DNA of 41,307 nucleotides, taken from Steroidobacteraceae bacterium (lineage in GTDB: Bacteria > Pseudomonadota > Gammaproteobacteria > Steroidobacterales > Steroidobacteraceae). The notes below the pieces were generated by a model. That model saw only the letters and a program-made list of their open reading frames with translations. It was not told where the DNA came from and made no database searches. Location: positions 1 to 41,307 of the forward strand of contig JADGHX010000023.1 of the NCBI GenBank assembly GCA_019683695.1. The letters are read 5' to 3'. Position numbers and translations under genes: made by a program. Within the stretch, counting starts at the first letter, position 1. Every line of letters starts with the position of its first letter. This document shows, one piece after another, positions 29,821-40,511 of this stretch.

Positions 29821-30708
29821 TCAGCGTCCGAGCGCCGCCTGCATGGCAGCGATTTCCTCGCCGGACTCCTGAATCAGCTTGTCGTACGCGGGGCGGTCGA
29901 GTTGCATGCGCGCGCACGCCGCCACGCCTTCCATGTTGAGCTCGATGGTTTCCGGATGGTCGCGATAGGAGGCGAGCAGGTAGCCCACGGTCAGCACGTC
30001 CGTGAGATCCGTGGGCCCGATGTGCGTGCGGCCGATGTCTTCGTAGTTGCCCACGGCCTCGACGATTTCCTCCGCCATCTCCCAGTTCTCGAGCAGCGCC
30101 TTCGCGATGCTCGAATGCCAGTCCCGCACGATGTTGTGGTACGCGGCCTCGTTCGAGAACAGCTTCGGATGCTTCGCCGCGCGCGTGAGGATGTAGAGCT
30201 GGCCGATGCCGTGAAGCAGGCCGGCGAGCAGCGCCGTATCCGGATTCACCTTCGAGAAGCGCCGCGCGACCGCGTGGCTCATCGCCGCCACGGCGGCACT
30301 GCGCGACCACAGCGCATCGAGCGGCTCCTCGAGGCCCTTGAGCGCATCCACCTTCTTGAGCTGCGACATCGCGAACGCGATTGCCGCGCTGCGTACCATG
30401 TTGAAGCCCATGCGGGCCACGGCCGTCCGCAGGTCCGTGACCACCTTGCCGCTGAAGTTCAGCGCAGCCGAATTCGCAAGCTGCAGCAGGCGGGCGGCGA
30501 GCGCCGGCTCGGAGCTCACCACGCGCACCACCTGTTCGGGCTTCACATTCTCATCCGACAGCACCTGGCGGACTCGCATCGCGATGTCCGGGAAGCTGGG
30601 CAGATCGACCTTGCCGGTCGACAGCTCGGCGGCCAGGGCCTGCACGAACGCAAAGGCTTCGGGATCCCCGATCCCGGCCGACTCAGCCGTTGCCGTGTTC
30701 TGTGCCAT
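29821..30708 (-). CDS. HDOD-domain signalling protein (paralogue 2)
   Basis: A 295-residue HDOD protein and tandem paralogue of the next gene; FAFVQALAAELSTGKVDLP matches FAFVQALATELSSGKVELP in its neighbour. Conserved parts: DLPSFPDIAMRVRQVL (36-50), SEPALAARLLQLANSAAL, DLRTAVARMGFNMVRSAAIAFAM, and GLLHGIGQLYIL (163-174). The latter keeps a His where active HD enzymes have His-Asp, so it is slightly less degenerate than paralogue 1 but still probably inactive. ATG 30708. It follows cheB by 137 bases on the same strand, so it may be read with the chemotaxis operon. Confidence 0.9.
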   Translation of the reverse strand: MAQNTATAESAGIGDPEAFAFVQALAAELSTGKVDLPSFPDIAMRVRQVLSDENVKPEQVVRVVSSEPALAARLLQLANSAALNFSGKVVTDLRTAVARMGFNMVRSAAIAFAMSQLKKVDALKGLEEPLDALWSRSAAVAAMSHAVARRFSKVNPDTALLAGLLHGIGQLYILTRAAKHPKLFSNEAAYHNIVRDWHSSIAKALLENWEMAEEIVEAVGNYEDIGRTHIGPTDLTDVLTVGYLLASYRDHPETIELNMEGVAACARMQLDRPAYDKLIQESGEEIAAMQAALGR

Positions 30709-30845: not shown

Positions 30846-31958
30846 CTAAAGCGCGCGTGCCTGTTTTGTGAAGTCCATCCCCTCTGCGAGCGCCAGCACA
30901 TGCGCGGCCATTTGGTGAATCGGCACGACGTCCTGAGCCGCGCCGATCGCAACGGCCTCGCCCGGCATGCCCCACACGACGCTCGTCGCCTCATCCTGCG
31001 CCACGGTGCGGCTGCCTGCGGCGCGCATTTCCTTCAGGCCCTTTGCGCCGTCCTTGCCCATGCCCGTGAGAATGACGCCAATGGCGTTCTCACCGGCGCT
31101 GCGAGCCACGGAGTTGAACAGCACGTCCACCGAAGGCTTGTGGCGATTTACCGGCGCGCCGTCATCCAGCCGGCACACGTAGCGCGCGCCATCCCGAACG
31201 AGATACAGGTGGCGATCGCCCGGAGCGATATACACGTGCCCGGCCAGCACCTGCTGCCCATCCTCGGCCTCGTACACCGTCATGGCGCAGCAGTCGTTCA
31301 TGCGCTTCGCGAAGGAGGTGCTGAACGCTTTCGGAATGTGCTGGGCGATTAGAATGCCCGGCGTGTCCGCCGGAAGGCCGCACAGCACCTGCTTGATCGC
31401 CTCGGTGCCGCCGGTGGAGGCGCCGATGGCGATGATGCGGTCCGTCGTGCGCATCCGGCGCGCCGCGGGCAATCCGCCGGCTGCCGCCGGCGCCGCGATC
31501 TTCGGTTTCAGCTGCGCGGCCCGCTGCGGGTCGAGCGCGCGCACGCTCGCGCAGGCGGCCGCCTTGATCTTGCCGATCAGCTCATCGCAGTACTCGGGCA
31601 GCTTCGCGGCCACGTCGATGCGCGGCTTCGCGAGGAAATCCACGGCGCCCATGGCGAGCGCATCGAGGGTGACCTCGGCGCCTCGCTCGGTCATGGAGGA
31701 GACCATCACCACCGGCATGGGCCGCAGCCGCATGAGGTTGTTGAGGAAGGTGAGCCCGTCCATCTTGGGCATTTCCACATCGAGCGTCAGCACGTCGGGA
31801 TTCAGCTTCTTGATCTTCTCCCGCGCGATGTGAGCATCCCCCGCGGTGCCCACGACCTCGATCGCCGGATCGCGCGAGAGCACATCCGTGAGGATGCTCC
31901 GCACGAGCGCCGAGTCGTCCACGATGAGAACGCGTATGCGCTTGCCTGGCGTGCTCAT
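30846..31958 (-). CDS. cheB: chemoreceptor methylesterase/deamidase CheB
   Basis: Removes methyl groups from receptors for adaptation, when phosphorylated by CheA; 370 aa. The receiver domain has the phospho-acceptor Asp60 ([14 protein letters not shown]). A linker rich in Ala/Pro leads to the esterase domain with catalytic Ser181 (GASTGG), His207 (AQHIP) and Asp303 (GMGKDG), all present. ATG 31958 overlaps the cheD stop by 4 bases; the longer frame upstream is cheD read out of frame. Last gene of the cheR-cheD-cheB block. Confidence 0.97.
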
Positions 31959-32611
31959 GTGAAGAGCTCGATGTCGCCGCCCTCGTCCTTGGCACGCAGG
32001 CTCTCCATGTACAGCTTCTCGCGGTCGCTGATGCCGCGGATCTCGATGGGCCGGAGCTTTCGCACGCGCACCCTGCCTTCGGTCGGGAAGTAGATGACCT
32101 TGCGCGGCTGATCGCCGCCGACGTCCTGCGCCGTGATGGGCAGGCGCTCCAGATTGAGGTAGCTCTTCACGAAGTCGATGTTGCGTTTGCCGATGTCCGT
32201 CATCGCGGCGAGCACGCGCCCGCCGCCGAACACCTTGATCTCCAGGCGCTCGCGCACGGCGCCGAGCTTCAGCAGATCGTTGATGAGGCTTTCCATCGCA
32301 TGCGAGCCGTACCGCGTGGACAGCACGACCGGAGCGCCGCGGGCGGATCCATCCCGCGGGGTGGTGTCCTCCGGCAGCATGAAATGATTCATCCCGCCCA
32401 CCTTCGCGACCGGGTCGCGAATGCACGCGGAGATGCACGAGCCGAGCACCGTGGTGATGGCCTCGTCACTGCGCGTCACGTAGTACTCGCCCGGAAGAAT
32501 CTTTACCGTCCAACGTTGGGTGTCCGGCTCCCAGAACCGCTGGATCTGCTCGAAGCCGCGCACCACCGGGGGCGGTACGGGGCGCAGCGTGCGTTGTGCG
32601 ATCTCCGGCAT
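31955..32611 (-). CDS. cheD: receptor glutamine deamidase CheD
   Basis: Deamidates glutamines on chemoreceptors; 218 aa. The triad geometry matches Thermotoga CheD: Thr53, Cys59 (TTVLGSC) and His76 (GGMNHF), with the same 6- and 17-residue spacings as T21-C27-H44. Later motifs include [19 protein letters not shown] and [12 protein letters not shown] 32611 is 8 bases after the cheR stop. The N-terminal 30 residues before the core are longer than in minimal CheD, and the C-terminus has an extra charged tail. Confidence 0.95.
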
Positions 32612-32619
32612 GGCGTCGT

Positions 32620-33477
32620 TCAGCTCCTGCGGTAGATCGTGCGGCCGATCAGCGCATAGTCGTTGGATACCTTGAACAGCGTTTCCGAGTGGCCCAGGAA
32701 GAGGAGGTCTCCCGGCCGCTGCAGACGCGACATCCGCGCGATGAGGTCGCGCTGCGTCTCCTTGTCGAAATAGATGACGACGTTGCGGCAGAAGATCACG
32801 TCCAGCGGCCCCCGCATCGGGAACGGGTGCATCAGATTCAGCTGTTTCACCGTGAGCAGGCGCGCCAGCTCCGGTTTCACCTTGAACGAGGGCTCCCTGG
32901 CCTCGGGGAACGGCGTGAAGAAGCGCTCGCGGCGTTCCGCGCTCAGCGCCTGAAGGCGCTCCGCCGTGTAGATGCCGCGCCGGGCTTTCTCGACCACGTC
33001 GGAATCGAGGTCCGTGGCGAGGATCTTGATGTCCCAGCGCTCGATCTCGGGAATGGTCTCGAGCACGGTCATCGCGATGCTGTAGGGCTCCTCGCCCGTC
33101 GAGCACCCCGCGGACCAGATGCGAACGCGCCGCTGCGGAGGCGGGTTCTGCACCATCGGCAGCAGCACCTCATCGCGCAGATGCTCGAAATGGTGCGGCT
33201 CGCGGAAGAACGCCGTGAGATTGGTGGTGATGGCATTGCAGAACTGCACCAGCTCGCCGTGCTCATCGCGCGCGAGGAGCTCGCGATATTCGCGGAAGCT
33301 CCGCAGATTCAGCGCGCGCAGCCGCCGGGCGAGGCGCCCGTAAACGAGCTCGCGCTTCTGCTCGGAGAGACTGATGCCGGTGACGTCGCGGACCAGCCTG
33401 CGCAAAGCCTGGAAGTCTTCGTCGCCGAATTCGAACTCACGCAGGCGGACCGTGATGGAGGTGGTGCTGGTGTCCAC
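32620..33477 (-). CDS. cheR: chemoreceptor methyltransferase CheR
   Basis: Methylates receptor glutamates using S-adenosylmethionine; 285 aa. The N-terminal helical domain (about 16-90, [32 protein letters not shown]) precedes the SAM domain with [41 protein letters not shown] and LFLGHSETL are typical. The start is a GTG at 33477 without an obvious ribosome site, so it is uncertain by a few codons. CheR could dock on the DWQEF tail of the MCP two genes upstream. Confidence 0.95.
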
Positions 33478-33517: not shown

Positions 33518-33880
33518 CTATTTCAGGACCTTGGCCACCGTGGCGAGCAGGCGATCGGGATTGAATGGCTTCACGAGCCATCCCGTGGCACCCGCTTCGC
33601 GCCCCTGCATCTTGCGTTCGGCGCTGCCTTCGGTGGTGAGCACGAGCAGGGGCGTGTGCCGATAGCTCGGCATGCCCCGCAGGTGCCGCACGAGAGTGAG
33701 GCCATCCATCTCCGGCATGTTCACATCCGTGATGACGAGATCGAAGGTGCTTGCGTTGGCGATGTCGAGCGCCTCGCGCCCGTCCTTCGCCTGCTCCACG
33801 TCGTAGCCCGCGCTCGTCAGGGTGACCCGCACCATCTGCCGCATGGCGGCCGAGTCATCGACGGTCAGAATCCGGGGCAC
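33518..33880 (-). CDS. cheY: CheY-type response regulator
   Basis: Single-domain receiver, 120 aa, the likely output of CheA. It has Asp8/Asp9, phospho-acceptor Asp52 (ITDVNMPEMDG), Thr82/Thr83 (LTTEGS) and Lys104 (VKPF), so all active residues are present. The start is GTG 33880, supported by GGGAGG 7 bases upstream. It lies between the MCP gene and cheR, 89 bases after the former with a strong hairpin in the gap. No cheZ is seen in the window. Confidence 0.94.
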   Translation of the reverse strand: MPRILTVDDSAAMRQMVRVTLTSAGYDVEQAKDGREALDIANASTFDLVITDVNMPEMDGLTLVRHLRGMPSYRHTPLLVLTTEGSAERKMQGREAGATGWLVKPFNPDRLLATVAKVLK

Positions 33881-33969: not shown

Positions 33970-36636
33970 TCAGAATTCCTGCCAGTCCGTGTCCGAGTTG
34001 CTCACCTGCTTGCGCGCGGTGGCGGCCGGCAGCGGCACGGCAGCCGCGCCATTGGTGCGCTTGGACCAGGGTCGGTTCGCGGAGCGCCGTTCCACCATCA
34101 CGCCCGGCGCCTTCTCGGCCGGCGCCGTCTCCGCGGCGGGCTCGGCGGTGGCCGGCTTCGCGGCGGGCTTCGTGTCCTCGGCGCGGCTGCTCACGCGGTA
34201 GCGGCTCATCATCTCGTTGAGCTGGCGCGCCTGGTCGGCCATGGCCTGCGAGGAGGCGGTGGCCTGCTCCACGAGCGCGGCGTTCTGCTGGGTCAGCTCG
34301 TCCATCTGCATGACCGCGCGGTTCACCTGCTCGATGCCCGAGGACTGCTCGCGCGAGGCGGCGGCGATCTCGGCCACGATGTCGGAGACCTTCTTCACCG
34401 AGGCCACGATCTGCTCGAGCGTCTGGCCCGACTGGGTGACGAGCAGTGAGCCATCCTGCACCTTGCGGACGCTGTCCTGGATGAGGTCCTTGATCTCCTT
34501 GGCGGCCGTGGCCGAGCGCCCGGCAAGGTTGCGCACTTCGCTCGCCACCACGGCAAAGCCGCGGCCCTGCTCGCCGGCCCGCGCGGCTTCGACCGCCGCG
34601 TTGAGGGCCAGCAGGTTCGTCTGGAACGCGATCTCGTCGATGACGCCGATGATGTCGGCGATCCGGCGGGAGGCATCGTTGATCTCCGCCATTGCGCGCA
34701 CCGCCTGCGAGACGACCGCGCCGCCTTTCTCGGCCTGATCGCGCGCCGCCGTGGCGAGCTGATTCGCCTGACCCGCGTTGTCCGCGTTCTGCTTCACCGT
34801 GGAGGTCATCTCCTCCATGGAGGAGGCCGTCTCCTCGAGCGAGGAGGACTGTTCCTCCGTGCGCTGCGAGAGATTCGCGTTGCCGGCCGAGATCTCCTCG
34901 GCGCCGCGATACACCTCGCTCGCGGCGATCTTCACGCGACGGACGATGTCCGCCATGTTGTCGGCCAGGTGGTTCACGCCGCGGCTCATCGCCTCGAAGA
35001 AGCCCACCTTGCCTTCGAGCGAGATGCGCTTTTCGAGATCGCCCGCCAGCACGGAGGAGAGCATGTCCTGCATCTCGCTCTCGACGGCGACTTCCTGCGT
35101 GCGGTCGGTCCATTCGAACACCGTGCCTGCGCGGGCGCCGGTGGAGTCGATAACCGGGTTCGCCACGACGCGGAACGTGCGGCGGCCCAGGTTCACCTGC
35201 GAGGTGTGCGCGGTGCGCAGGTCCATGAGCATGCGCCGGTCCTGCGAGGGGTTCTTCGACAGCACATCCACGCTCGAGCCGAGCAGATGTGCGGCGCTGA
35301 ACTGCGGCAGGTCCTTGCGGATGTCGCTCTCGGCCTCGCTCATCAGCGCGCGGGCGGCCGGGTTCATGTAGATGAAGTTGTAGTTCTGGTCCGCGACCAT
35401 CACGTTCGAGGACACGTTGTCGAGCGCTGCGCGCACCCGCGCGTTTTCCTCAGCCTGCTTGCGCTCCGTTTCGATCTGCGCACGCAGCTTGCCCTGCATG
35501 TCGCCCAGCGCGCGGAGCACCTGCGCCACTTCGTCCACACCCTGCGCCTCGATGGCGTTGTCGTAGTGGCCGTTGGCGATGGAGCTGAACACCGAGATGG
35601 CCTGCGACATCGGCCGCGTCACCGCACGGGTGATGAGCCAGCTGAGCGCGAGCGCAAGGCCGATCACCACGGCAATGGTCAGAGCCGTGAGATTACGCGT
35701 CGTGGCCTCGCGGGAGGCGCGAGCCTCGATCTCCTCCAGCATCACGTCGTACGAGGCATTGGCCAGTGCCACGAACGCCTCGATGGAGCTGGATGCGGCT
35801 TCATACATTTCGGTGCCGCTGACGTTGACCTCGGTCGCCTTCAGCAGCTTCTGGTCGACGAACGAGGAGTAGCTTGCGAACGCGTCGAGCGCTCGCTGGA
35901 AATGGGGGGCAACGCCCGTGCGCACCTGATCCGAGTTGTCCTCGATGGAATCGAGCTGCCGGTCGATCTGGCCGAGGAGCGAGTTCACCTCCTGCCGGGC
36001 GAGCTCGATCGTGACGCGGTCGCCTTCGCTCAGGTAACCGCGCAGCACGCCCGCGGTGGCGCGGTCGCGCACCACACCGGCGCGGTTCACGGCTTCCGGC
36101 ATGCGGCCCGTGGACAACCCCACGAGCGTGCTCGCCACCTGATCCGGATCGCGCGCCATCCCCGAGGCCATCGAGACGGCGGTGCCGAAGTCGAGGAGCT
36201 TGCGCACGATGTCGTTGTGCTGCGCCAGGCTGTCATCCGGCGGCAGGGAGAGCGCACGCGACTTGAGCGAGTTCCACTCCGACTTGATGGTCTGCCAGTC
36301 GGCGCTTGCGCCCAGCGTCTTGCCGATTTCCGCATCCACCGCATCGAGCGCGGCGGCGGCCTTGTCGGCGGCAGCCTGGGCCGAGTGCACGGCGTCCTTG
36401 CGCGTGGCGTCGCCGTTCAGAACCACGTTTGCGAGCGCACGGTGCCGGATGACTTCGTACAGGAAGTCATCGATGGCACGCGTGTAGCGGGCCCCGATGA
36501 GCTCGGCCTGCGCCTGGTGCACGGTCTGGTTCGCGCTCTTCAGGTAGAAGACCGCGAGCAGCGCGGAGGGGACCAGGAGCGCCACCACCACGAGCAGCAA
36601 CTTGTGCCAGAGAAGCAATCTGCCGAGAAATTTCAT
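33970..36636 (-). CDS. methyl-accepting chemotaxis protein with PAS domain
   Basis: Chemoreceptor of 888 aa. A transmembrane segment (about 13-33), a large helical periplasmic region (about 34-314), a second transmembrane segment (315-338), HAMP, and a PAS domain (around 400-505; [25 protein letters not shown]) precede the signalling domain with the hairpin core [37 protein letters not shown]. An acidic/Pro-Ala tail ends in DWQEF, resembling the CheR/CheB-binding pentapeptide NWETF. ATG 36636 is preferred over GTG 36657 because GGAG lies 8 bases upstream. Ligand unknown; the PAS suggests a second, cytoplasmic input such as redox. Confidence 0.94.
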
Positions 36637-36687: not shown

Positions 36688-37014
36688 TCAGCCTTTCGCC
36701 TTGAAGATGCGAACCTGCTCGTTGAACTTCGCTGCGATGCTCGTCAGCGAGTCCATCGCCGCGTTGTGGCGGCGCGCCTGCTCTTCCTTCGACAGGCGGT
36801 TCTGCTTGGCCTCGAACTCGAGGCACTTCACGTACGTGTTCACGTCCGTGTCGTAGCGCTTCAGCGTCTGCATCGCCGCGATCATCTCGGCCTCGGTGGC
36901 CGTCGTCGCGTCGGGCACCTTGGTGGGCGCGACGGGCGGTGTGCACTCCGCCATTGCCGGCAGCGCGAAGCCGCCCGCCACGAGCGCAAGGCACAGGGTT
37001 CTTACACGGTTCAT
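36688..37014 (-). CDS. small secreted helical protein in che cluster
   Basis: A 108-residue hypothetical protein with a clear signal peptide (MNRVRTLCLALVAGG..., cleavage after AMA at 22). The mature part of about 86 residues has two cysteines (24 and 64), which could form a disulfide, and two long helices. The stretch VPDATTATEAEMIAAMQTLKRY (about 33-54) resembles a motif I recall from small secreted proteobacterial proteins of unknown role. ATG 37014 has GGAGG 9 bases upstream; the longer frame from 37044 is rejected because it spoils the signal sequence. It lies between cheW and the MCP gene, so a periplasmic partner for that receptor is possible. No function is established. Confidence 0.85.
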   Translation of the reverse strand: MNRVRTLCLALVAGGFALPAMAECTPPVAPTKVPDATTATEAEMIAAMQTLKRYDTDVNTYVKCLEFEAKQNRLSKEEQARRHNAAMDSLTSIAAKFNEQVRIFKAKG

Positions 37015-37171
37015 TTCCTCAATCCTCCAGGTCCGCAGACTCAAATCGTCAAATCAGGGGTTTCGAACATATCGCCGACGCGTCAGGACGCGTGCCGCAT
37101 GGGACCTTTCGGCGCGCGCACCGTTTTCTTGAGGCAGTGCGGCAACATCCGTGATTCACGTCGCATGGGTT

Positions 37172-37663
37172 TCAGTGCGTGGACAGCGAACCCAGCAGCC
37201 CCTCGCTCACCATTCGGTCGATGTCGAGCAGGATCACCATGCGGTTGTCCACCGTGGCGAGCCCTTTGACGAAATCTGTCTTGATGCCGGAGCCGAAATC
37301 CGGGGCGGGCTGGCGCGCCTCGGCGCTCACGCTGCACACCTCCGACACCGCATCCACCACGAGCCCGAGCGTGCGCTCGCCGCGCTCGTTCACGACTTTC
37401 ACGACGATGACGACCGTGGTCGGCCCGAACTCCGCGGCCGGCATGCCGAAGCGCCGCCGCAGATCCACGATCGGCACGATGGCGCCACGCAGATTGATCA
37501 CGCCGAGGATGTAGTCGGGCGTGTTCGGGATCGGCGTGACGCGGTCCCACCCCTGAATGCCCTGCACCTGCAGGATGGTGACGCCGTATTCCTCGCCGCC
37601 CAGCACGAATGTCAGGAACTGCTCGGCGCCGGATGACGTTTCGCTGGTGGTGACTGCATTCAT
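37172..37663 (-). CDS. cheW: chemotaxis coupling protein CheW
   Basis: Couples receptors to CheA; 163 aa. Typical CheW fold motifs: FLTFVLGGEEYGVTILQVQGIQGWDRVTPIPNTPDYILGVINLRGAIVPIVDLRRRFG (18-75) and LGLVVDAVSEVCSV. ATG 37663 shares one base with the cheA stop (TGATG), so translation is coupled. The next gene is the small secreted protein, 157 bases on. Confidence 0.96.
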   Translation of the reverse strand: MNAVTTSETSSGAEQFLTFVLGGEEYGVTILQVQGIQGWDRVTPIPNTPDYILGVINLRGAIVPIVDLRRRFGMPAAEFGPTTVVIVVKVVNERGERTLGLVVDAVSEVCSVSAEARQPAPDFGSGIKTDFVKGLATVDNRMVILLDIDRMVSEGLLGSLSTH

Positions 37664-39999
37664 CAGTTGGCCCTCGCTCCCGCGCTTGCGCGGCGGATGA
37701 TTCCAGGCAGATCGAGAATCAGCGCCACGGAGCCATCTCCGAGAATGGTGGCGCCCGAGACACCGTCGATGTGCCCGTAGTTGGTTTCCAGAGACTTGAT
37801 GACGACCTGCTGCTGGCCGAGCAGGTCGTCCACGAACAGCCCCACGCGCCGGCCGTCGCCTTCCACGATGACGATGAGGCCTTCATCCAGCTCGCGCGAG
37901 CGCGGCTCCACGTTGAACAGCTCGTGCAGGCGGATGACGGGAACGTAGTCCCCGCGGAACGCGAATACTTCTCCGCGGCCGGCGATGCGGTTCAGCGAGC
38001 CCTGCTTGATCTGCAGCGACTCGATGATGCTGATGAGCGGCACGATGTAGTTCTGCTTGCCGACCGCGATCGACTGGCCGTCGACGATCGCAAGGGTGAG
38101 CGGCAGCGTGATGATGAAGCGTGCGCCGCGACCCGGGTCGTTCTTCACTTCGATGGAGCCACCGAGCTCCTTCACGTTGCGCCGGACCACATCGAGCCCG
38201 ACGCCACGGCCGGACACGTCCGTGGTCGTCTCCGCGGTTGAGAAGCCGGGAAGGAAGATGAGCTCGCACGCCTGCTCGTCGGTGACCGTTTCGTTCGGCC
38301 CGATGAGACCGCGCGCGCGGGCCTTCGCGATGATGCGGGCGGGGTCGAGACCGCCGCCATCGTCGCTCACCTCCACGCAGATGTTGCCGCCGCGATGGCA
38401 CGCGTCGAGCCGCAGGTGACCGGTGGGGCTCTTGCCCTTCGCGACGCGCACCTCGGGCTTCTCGATCCCGTGATCGATGCTGTTCCTCACGAGGTGCACG
38501 AGCGGGTCGCCGATCTTCTCGAGCACGGTCTTGTCGAGCTCGGTCTGCTCACCGGTCATGACGAGCTCGATCTGCTTGCCGAGGCGCTGTGCCAGGTCGC
38601 GCACCATGCGCGGGAAGCGGCTGAACACGAAGCTGATGGGCAGCATGCGCACGCGCATCACGCTGTCCTGCAGCTCGCGCATGTTGCGTTCGAGCTCGGC
38701 GAGCCCCAGGCGGAACTGGTCCGCGGCCGGGCCTTCGAGATTGCGGCCGAGCTGGCTCAGCATGGATTGCGTGATCACCAGCTCGCCCACGGTATTCATG
38801 AGCTCGTCGATCTTCTCGACGCTCACGCGAATCGAGCCGCTGTCGCCGATGCCGCTGGCGGCGGCGGCCTCGGATTTCGAGACCCGCTCGGGAGCGTGAT
38901 GCGGCTCGGGATTGACGGTCGGCTCCGGCTTGCGCGCAGGCGTCTCCGCTGGTGCAGGCGCGGCTGCTGCAGTGACTTTCGCCGTGGCTGCGGTGTCGGC
39001 CTGCGGCGCCGCTGGCGCATTCGATGCATCGAGCGCATTCGGGGGCGGCGCCGCGCCGGCGGATTCTGCGGGAGGTGCAGCAGGCGCTGCTGCGTTCGCC
39101 GCGACCGGTGCGTGGGTCGGTGCGCCGCTTGCGGCCTGCATGGCGTCGAACTCCGCAATGAGCGCGTAGTTCGTGATGTCCTCGGCCGGCGGGGCGGTGC
39201 TCTCGAGCGTGATGCTGAGATCGCAGTCCCCTTCGGCCCAGTCGAACACCTGGCGAATGGCGGCCTCGTCCACCGCGCCGGACAGCTCGAGGTTCCACGC
39301 GAGATAGCAGTTCTGCGTCTCGAGCGCATCGAACGACGGCAGCCGGTCGAGATCGACTTCGACGTTGAGCGTGCCGAGCTCCGCCAGCTCACGCAGCATG
39401 CGCAGCGGATCGTTGCCGCGCGCGAAGAGCTCGGGATACGGACGGAATGAGATCTTCCAGCGTCGTTCGCTCGTACCGGGCGTGCTCGCCGCGGCCTGAG
39501 TGGTCGTTGACGAGCCTCCCTCCGCCGGGCTTGCGTTCGCCGACTGCGCGGCGCTCGTGGAGGTGCCTTGCGCGGCCGCGGCTTCCGCCGGCGCGGCCGC
39601 GGCGCCGTTCCGCTGCGCCAGGATCATCTCCGTATCGAACTGGAGATCGGCCACTCGCTGCGAATCGATCGGCTTCTTCGCCTGCACGGCGCGCAGCATG
39701 TCCCGCATCGCGTCGACCGATTTCAGCAGCAGATCGGAGATGGCCTGCGTCACCTGCAGACGATTCGCGCGCAGCTCATCGAGCAGTGTCTCGAGGCTGT
39801 GCGTGAACGATGCGATCTCGCTGAAGCCGAACGTCGCACTCCCGCCCTTGATCGAGTGTGCGACCCGGAAGATCGTGTTGATCAGCTCGGCATCGGGCGC
39901 ACCCAGATCGAGCTTGAGGAGGGAAGCCTCCATCATGTCGAGCGCTTCGAAGCTCTCTTCGAAGAACGCGTCGTGGAATTGCGTGAGATCGAGCGTCAT
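37663..39999 (-). CDS. cheA: chemotaxis histidine kinase CheA
   Basis: Receptor-controlled histidine kinase, 778 aa. An N-terminal HPt domain has phospho-acceptor His48 (FRVAHSIKGGSATFG). Two P2-like or linker segments rich in Ala/Pro/Thr follow, then the dimerisation helix (VSVEKIDELMNTVGELVITQ). The ATPase has HLVRNSIDHGIE, DDGGGLDP and GRGVGLDVV, and a CheW-like P5 domain ends the protein. All catalytic boxes are present. ATG 39999 overlaps the stop of the STAS gene by 4 bases and its own stop overlaps cheW by one base. Confidence 0.96.
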   Translation of the reverse strand: MTLDLTQFHDAFFEESFEALDMMEASLLKLDLGAPDAELINTIFRVAHSIKGGSATFGFSEIASFTHSLETLLDELRANRLQVTQAISDLLLKSVDAMRDMLRAVQAKKPIDSQRVADLQFDTEMILAQRNGAAAAPAEAAAAQGTSTSAAQSANASPAEGGSSTTTQAAASTPGTSERRWKISFRPYPELFARGNDPLRMLRELAELGTLNVEVDLDRLPSFDALETQNCYLAWNLELSGAVDEAAIRQVFDWAEGDCDLSITLESTAPPAEDITNYALIAEFDAMQAASGAPTHAPVAANAAAPAAPPAESAGAAPPPNALDASNAPAAPQADTAATAKVTAAAAPAPAETPARKPEPTVNPEPHHAPERVSKSEAAAASGIGDSGSIRVSVEKIDELMNTVGELVITQSMLSQLGRNLEGPAADQFRLGLAELERNMRELQDSVMRVRMLPISFVFSRFPRMVRDLAQRLGKQIELVMTGEQTELDKTVLEKIGDPLVHLVRNSIDHGIEKPEVRVAKGKSPTGHLRLDACHRGGNICVEVSDDGGGLDPARIIAKARARGLIGPNETVTDEQACELIFLPGFSTAETTTDVSGRGVGLDVVRRNVKELGGSIEVKNDPGRGARFIITLPLTLAIVDGQSIAVGKQNYIVPLISIIESLQIKQGSLNRIAGRGEVFAFRGDYVPVIRLHELFNVEPRSRELDEGLIVIVEGDGRRVGLFVDDLLGQQQVVIKSLETNYGHIDGVSGATILGDGSVALILDLPGIIRRASAGARAN

Positions 40000-40466
40000 G
40001 CCGGCGCTCCTGCCTGCGCCAGCAGCCGGTCCTCCGTGACCGGGCTGATCAGCGCACCCAAACCCAGAAGATTCGCGGTCGCGAGGACCGGCTCGGTGGC
40101 GCCCCGGCATTCCGTGTCATGACCTGCGGCGTGCCGCGTGCGCATGAACGACGCGATCACCTGAAGCCCCGCGGTGTCCAGACGGCGCACGGCAGACAGG
40201 TCGAGCGTCACGAGCGCCGTCCGGTTCAGCATGCGTGCGAGCATCCGCTTGAGCTCATCGGCCTCCGCGATCGTGCACTCCGCGGGGAACACCGCGGATT
40301 CGGGGCGCGAGGCTGTGTGGGCGGCGCGCCGCGAGGCGGCCGGTTTCTGATCGGCCCGGGCTGCCGGGCGCTTCCGGGGCGCGGCACGGCGTGTCTGGGC
40401 TGAGGGACGCTTGCGGGGTGCGGCCTGCTTTTTCCGGCTGCTGCCGGTCTTGCGCCGCGTGGTCAT
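39996..40466 (-). CDS. STAS-domain protein with basic N-terminal tail
   Basis: A 156-residue protein whose C-terminal 90 residues form a STAS (anti-sigma-antagonist type) domain: ALVTLDLSAVRRLDTAGLQVIASFMR (84-109). The usual phosphorylatable residue of the D-S/T-x-G site is Thr98. The first 58 residues are extremely basic, with AAPRKRP repeated exactly at 15-21 and 28-34 and KTGSSRKK near the start, like a histone-H1-type tail. ATG 40466 has AAGGA 9 bases upstream; TTG 40496 would add ten residues. It precedes cheA with a 4-base overlap and has its own sigma28 promoter. A STAS gene beside cheA is known elsewhere; the basic tail is not usual. Partner unknown. Confidence 0.87.
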   Translation of the reverse strand: MTTRRKTGSSRKKQAAPRKRPSAQTRRAAPRKRPAARADQKPAASRRAAHTASRPESAVFPAECTIAEADELKRMLARMLNRTALVTLDLSAVRRLDTAGLQVIASFMRTRHAAGHDTECRGATEPVLATANLLGLGALISPVTEDRLLAQAGAPA

Positions 40467-40511
40467 CTGCTGGGGTCCTTTCCGAGGTTCAGTCAAAAAC
40501 GTACGCGTTGG

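Follow-up and report, generated by a model that had tools for sequence, protein, structure and literature searches.

Why does a chemotaxis operon harbor, in its midst, the gene of a small protein that is probably exported to the periplasm? This question is raised by the 41,307-nucleotide stretch of Steroidobacteraceae DNA presented above (the window, by which the whole stretch is meant), where such a gene, here termed FOC, resides between cheW and the gene of an MCP chemoreceptor (Table 1). A sequence-only reading of this DNA had envisaged a dedicated periplasmic partner of that receptor. Its first observation is right and its interpretation half right, as FOC is neither a singleton nor the usual neighbor of an MCP. 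What makes FOC a candidate periplasmic partner of receptors is that it is nearly always found with one kind of sensor domain.

The MCP of the window carries HAMP, PAS_8, and MCPsignal domains by Pfam. It ends in DWQEF (33970-33990; DWSEF in genome G154), which we take to resemble the CheR-docking pentapeptide. Upstream of cheA lies a STAS-type gene (39996-40496), named by eye, whose product has a Lys/Arg-rich N-terminus and which also precedes cheA in many relatives.

Table 1. Features of the chemotaxis operon and of FOC in the window
Feature	Position	Strand	Basis and remarks
HDOD-type gene, operon end	29821..30708	-	by eye; homologues in relatives
CheB	30846..31958	-	by eye; homologues in relatives; start picked by eye
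CheD	31955..32611	-	PF03975, 1.2e-29; start picked by eye
CheR	32620..33477	-	by eye; homologues in relatives
CheY-type receiver	33518..33880	-	by eye; homologues in relatives
MCP chemoreceptor	33970..36636	-	NIT-fold periplasmic sensor (by model), HAMP, PAS, signalling domain
MCP periplasmic sensor	35674..36555	-	residues 28-321, all-helical, NIT fold by model
FOC (small exported protein)	36688..37014	-	108 aa + stop, ATG start, TGA end
FOC predicted helical hairpin	36694..36894	-	helices 41-70 and 76-107, AlphaFold2
FOC Cys64 codon	36823..36825	-	invariant
FOC Cys24 codon	36943..36945	-	invariant; putative disulfide partner of Cys64
FOC probable Sec signal peptide	36949..37014	-	residues 1-22, cleavage after AMA, by eye
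FOC ribosome-binding site	37024..37028	-	GGAGG, 9 nt before ATG, from sequence
CheW	37172..37663	-	PF01584, 1.8e-39
CheA	37663..39999	-	by eye from translation; homologues in same order in relatives

The 108-residue open reading frame initially described between cheW and the MCP gene holds up, with its start and stop codons and upstream GGAGG in place, and is separated by 157 bp from the end of cheW (37172) and by 51 bp from the start of the MCP gene (36636). That FOC is a gene beyond chance follows from matches to its family in 50 of 59 genomes (relatives, its own genome included) and from purifying selection, as 11 pairs of che-linked homologues give dN/dS values of 0.03-0.33 for the mature region. 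A consensus scan, a weakly informative method, detected neither a sigma-70-type promoter nor a terminator around the gene, and no plasmid-borne copy matched at 1e-5.

The proposed signal peptide is supported by reading the N-terminus by eye, where MNRVR is followed by a hydrophobic stretch and then by AMA and EC, between which cleavage would occur. A hydrophobic N-terminal stretch is present in 66 of 68 distinct homologues, and residues 1-20 have low pLDDT in the AlphaFold2 model. The two cysteines noted at first are those of the mature protein, Cys24 and Cys64, the whole chain having a third, Cys8, inside the signal peptide. Cys24 and Cys64 are invariant in alignments of 24 (A1) and 40 rows (A3), and a CxxP motif with a later cysteine recurs in all 68 distinct full-length homologues, at a spacing of 39-41 residues in 67 of them; from these sequences we infer a Cys24-Cys64 disulfide. 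The predicted structure is indeed helical, but the helical repeats first described amount to a single hairpin, preceded by an extended arm (mean pLDDT 87.3, pTM 0.72; 40-row alignment). Size and predicted fold rule out a solute-binding protein.

Neither Pfam nor NCBIfam offers a family above its cut-off for FOC. DUF4231 (PF14015) reaches 14.5 bits over residues 2-55 (E 0.049), below its cut-off of 24.7, and none of 40 homologues exceeded a cut-off among the 25 listed of 50 weak Pfam families. Searches of the PDB by sequence found no convincing relative for either FOC profile (best E 0.45 and 0.035), and the model's fold matches there are no more specific than generic helical bundles (best Z 8.8). 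Among the open-access matches listed, and as far as their accessible text extends, no paper addresses the FOC family or a small periplasmic partner in a che operon.

The description of FOC as an undescribed protein therefore survives in the sense that no named family contains it, but it is no singleton. Its family occurs in at least 220 of 247 genomes of the order, in a search that scored at most 18 FOC candidates per genome (at most nine for the sensor discussed below), so that a genome without a match may still carry a member. Steroidobacter, Povalibacter, Peristeroidobacter, and Woeseiaceae are among the carriers. Across the class, nine of 276 sampled genomes carry the family, four of them from this order, and 37 carry NIT-like sensors, the window's genome alone having both, which counts against a partnership of the two.

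The settings in which family members reside are diverse. A paralogue in the same genome (G000:C47:9029-9358; L031, L048), 43% identical to FOC, heads a molybdenum-cofactor operon, and a MoeA-type gene or cluster accompanies family members in 17 of 40 loci, this paralogue included (MoeA was assigned by Pfam, in L039; MoaA, MoaC, MobA/MoaD, and MoaE/MoeB by eye). An ABC ATPase with a TOBE domain, ModC-like by eye, is found near some copies, and a PspA-type gene near members in four of 40 loci (PF04012 in L064). In addition, the FOC domain forms the C-terminal part of fusions with an exported-looking cyclophilin (PF00160; L061:7135-8358 and L068:5789-6958) and the N-terminal part of fusions with TonB_C (PF03544; L053:2892-3929 and L054:7512-8555). 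By contrast with the expectation that homologues would dwell mainly in chemotaxis loci, che genes adjoin a family member in just five of 39 loci in one set and seven of 40 in a second, chosen from the 59-genome search; those of the first set with che genes all come from MAGs. Homologues as a whole thus lie mostly outside chemotaxis loci, which is one half of what the sequence-only reading had itself named as counting against a receptor partner. Taken with the fusions, the molybdenum-cofactor, PspA, and che settings portray FOC as a widespread periplasmic helical domain for which chemotaxis is one of several settings.

Within this broad family, the chemotaxis-linked copies stand apart. All 21 FOC rows from che operons fall in one clade of a 77-row tree (support 100/99), in which the window's FOC pairs with that of G154 (99/92); L076, L077, and L080, which represent the same loci as L036, L115, and L037, were left out, as was the fragment L111. 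Members of the clade have a diverged sequence and a shorter hairpin loop. Four family members near che genes fall outside it (L128 of G016, L058 of G030, L063 of G036, and L065 of G051), and the MCPs near them are without the sensor subtype defined below. The first of these (L128:14706-15029) is a divergent member with extra cysteines that follows the HDOD gene in a che operon of a different type.

The position beside the MCP, taken at first as a clue to function, is found in the window and in G154, the only two cases of a CheA-CheW-FOC-MCP order, whereas 20 other loci in which both neighbors are visible place FOC between cheY and cheR. A representative layout in relatives is STAS-CheA-CheW-MCP(s)-CheY-FOC-CheR-CheD-CheB-HDOD. 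FOC moved within the che operon yet was retained. Some relatives also have, between FOC and cheR, a small gene that appears CheZ-like by eye (L037:9114-9512 and L038:1982-2386, both on the minus strand); it encodes 133-134 residues ending in SEGSIELF, the L037 copy has no Pfam match, and the operon of the window lacks the gene, having 40 bp between cheY and cheR.

The clade keeps company with a particular receptor sensor. A profile built from 21 sensor domains of FOC-bearing operons matches at least 30 of the 247 order genomes at E <= 0.001, at least 23 of them above 190 bits, the score by which we define the subtype. FOC is present inside the operon in 18 of these 23 genomes and absent in one; in the remaining four the contig ends before the site, so that 18 of 19 judgeable genomes have it. 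FOC and sensor share a contig in 15 genomes (G000, G021, G115, G119, G121, G123, G124, G128, G129, G130, G131, G134, G136, G138, and G154), and in three others (G118, G120, and G122) FOC is on a complementary contig, the two presumably forming a single operon. The contigs that end before the CheY-CheR site belong to G117, G125, G127, and G137. A whole-assembly search located a single family member in each, outside the che locus, and since this sole member lies elsewhere, loss of FOC in these genomes is possible. The exception is G156, whose sensor scores 194.9 bits and in which FOC is absent at both possible sites, visible on two contigs. These counts exclude the four contig breaks and the fragments L129, L132, L135, and L149; in G001 and G025, FOC is present and the MCP lies off the contig.

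The converse comparison drew on 61 places with CheD, of which 40 were fetched and two more (the window and G021) included, the other 19 lying outside the sample. Among the 40 fetched loci, 21 are without the subtype sensor, 14 of them with a visible MCP signalling domain, and che-clade FOC is absent from all 21. The FOC profile matches one of the 21 (G016, 49 bits), outside the che clade. G115 contains both kinds of che operon, one with sensor and FOC (L115) and one with neither (L133). FOC is also missing beside the lower-scoring sensor relatives (27-76 bits) of L134, L137, L147, and L148. The proposal of a dedicated MCP partner thus gains a che-specific clade that shares its operon with one sensor subtype, and is weakened by a family mostly outside chemotaxis, by G156, and by the 20 loci in which FOC and the MCP are not neighbors. 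The co-occurrence is in part circular, because 11 of the 23 subtype genomes supplied rows to the profile; the 12 that did not comprise seven with FOC, one without, and four cut off by a contig end. The subtype operons also all descend from one operon type, so that the genomes counted do not amount to independent events.

Co-variation, assessed from protein distances over 14 operons with the sensor taken from the nearest MCP, refines this association. Raw distances of FOC correlate equally well with those of the sensor (0.90) and of CheR (0.905). When CheR, CheY, CheW, and the MCP signalling part are controlled for, the FOC-sensor partial correlation is 0.68, a value reached by none of 2,000 label permutations, which ignore the tree; it is 0.69 within the 11 g18 operons. 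With the sensor among the controls, the partial correlations with FOC are 0.30 for CheR, 0.36 for the MCP signalling part, 0.10 for PAS, -0.20 for CheY, and -0.49 for CheW. Shared rate changes of two fast-evolving periplasmic proteins could yield part of the FOC-sensor signal. The che clade and the sensor subtype are associated closely enough to merit a binding test.

The explanation that we prefer makes FOC a periplasmic accessory protein dedicated to the NIT-fold chemoreceptor, on which it would act much as QseG does on QseE. Its chief competitor holds that FOC is a passenger, a housekeeping paralogue that became inserted into an ancestral che operon, was co-inherited, and kept its original periplasmic job. 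For this a single event suffices, given that the che-linked copies group in one clade; the near universality of the family in the order and the equally good fit of raw FOC distances to CheR lend it further weight, while purifying selection, the diverged sequence with its shorter loop, and retention after a change of position in the operon speak against it. It is because the raw FOC-CheR correlation is as high, and because 11 of the 23 subtype genomes had contributed to that profile of sensors, that we hold the accessory-protein explanation tentatively, a little short of an even chance, and treat simple co-inheritance as a doubtful yet credible account.

Another account assigns FOC no signalling role and casts it as a chaperone-like factor for folding or envelope maintenance, serving the membrane proteins of the operon or the envelope at large. 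The fusions of the same domain to cyclophilin and TonB_C proteins and the pspA-type neighbors are what such a factor would lead one to find. However, it should not track one sensor subtype, and the clade is absent from the 21 other che loci, including the 14 that show an MCP signalling domain; moreover, FOC tracks the sensor more than it does the PAS and signalling parts of the same MCP. We regard this account as unlikely.

What the sensor itself may perceive depends on its fold. The large helical periplasmic domain that had been read from the sequence of the neighboring MCP is confirmed in the model, where it is all-helical (pLDDT 91.7; 5-row alignment). By this model, the sensor has the NIT fold: it aligns with the NIT domain of NasR (4akk) over 264 of 294 residues (Z 26.1, rmsd 2.9), the next-best fold match covering half the domain at Z 13.8, and Foldseek likewise ranks 4akk first (E 4.1e-4). 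Membership by sequence is marginal, because PF08376 scores the window's sensor at 24.3 bits alone and 32.7 with neighbors against a cut-off of 24.9, and hmmscan of the MCP lists no NIT; the fold carries the claim. In a six-frame search of 125 family genomes, the window's MCP was the top match of PF08376, which had matches in four genomes at E <= 0.01, the window's sensor alone passing the cut-off and the other FOC-bearing genomes having none.

GxxR is described as the nitrate motif in the accessible part of one report (PMC8199190). Its arginine is present in four of 14 FOC-bearing sensors, the window's included (GVVR), and replaced by glutamine in the other 10; an HR pair in helix 1 is kept in 13, with ER in G154. 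Both positions would correspond to NasR residues. According to the portion consulted of the McpN paper, the NIT domain of PA4520 from Pseudomonas aeruginosa bound neither nitrate nor nitrite, NIT subfamilies with other ligands were suggested, and nitrate taxis was seen in one species with a single NIT receptor (PMC6381276). A 2023 mapping, in the sections available, lists no ligand for PA4520 and describes an intermediate loss of taxis to 2-phenylethylamine in its mutant (PMC10653921). Nitrate sensing by the window's receptor is no safe inference.

That the NIT-fold receptor and FOC jointly report nitrate, nitrite, or molybdate is quite improbable: the fold, the GxxR kept in the window, the MoeA-type and ModC-like neighbors, nitrate taxis in a species with a single NIT receptor, and a locus of the same genome (L173, G000:C127) where NirB-like and molybdopterin oxidoreductase genes sit side by side would suit it, but the arginine is glutamine in most FOC-bearing sensors, the PA4520 domain bound neither ion in the experiments consulted, the molybdenum-cofactor link was found only in the window's family, and the L173 oxidoreductase has formate dehydrogenase alpha as its best NCBIfam row, with nitrate reductases next and none at cut-off (the best row of the NirB-like gene, NirB, is also below its cut-off).

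Under the accessory-protein explanation, FOC would have arisen by duplication in a housekeeping periplasmic family and been kept in the operon despite its change of position. Exported by Sec, it would have its N-terminal arm pinned to helix 1 by the Cys24-Cys64 disulfide and so form a small, rigid hairpin of helices. This hairpin may dock on the dimeric helical sensor of the operon's MCP or MCPs, straddling the dimer by analogy with QseG and QseE, and thereby bias its signalling state and shift its output. The receptor would then report the amount or state of FOC, or of something that FOC binds. A bolder version, which we consider rather doubtful, is that the NIT-fold receptors of this lineage sense no small molecule directly and have disulfide-locked FOC as their ligand, reporting the envelope or redox state or a carried compound.

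The ligands of NIT-domain chemoreceptors are poorly known, and FOC offers a concrete candidate that tracks one NIT-fold sensor subtype. If the accessory-protein explanation is true, dedicated accessory proteins other than solute-binding proteins are not confined to kinases but can serve chemoreceptors as well; if FOC is itself the ligand, a chemotaxis operon would encode its own protein ligand, and one that is no solute-binding protein.

Several known systems invite comparison. Proteins of the CpxP/Spy type are small, helical, and periplasmic and could tune a membrane sensor; FOC differs in its cysteine pair and its CxxP...PDG arm, the corresponding Pfam family (LTxxQ) gave no row for FOC at E <= 10, and it is absent among the 25 listed of 50 weak families for the 40 homologues. 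In TorT-TorS and in chemoreceptors on which solute-binding proteins dock, a periplasmic protein likewise presents a signal to a helical sensor, as FOC would, and one half of the MCP sensor also matches TorS in fold (Z 12.1, 125 aligned). TorT and the solute-binding proteins are, however, large two-lobed binding proteins, whereas FOC is modelled as a small helical hairpin. The likeness to the NIT domain (PF08376; NasR) concerns the MCP sensor and not FOC. The closest parallel is QseG, a helical lipoprotein of the periplasm whose gene accompanies that of its kinase; QseG binds and activates the helical sensor QseE in the part of the report consulted (PMC12691602). QseG is longer and is an outer-membrane lipoprotein acting on a kinase, whereas FOC has approximately 86 mature residues, a simple pattern search found a lipobox-like motif at the first conserved cysteine in none of 68 homologues, and FOC would act on a chemoreceptor, the NIT-fold sensor of which is larger. 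What the two systems would share, judging from the same portion of that report, is an operon-encoded periplasmic helical protein paired with the dimeric all-helical sensor of a receptor (PMC12691602).
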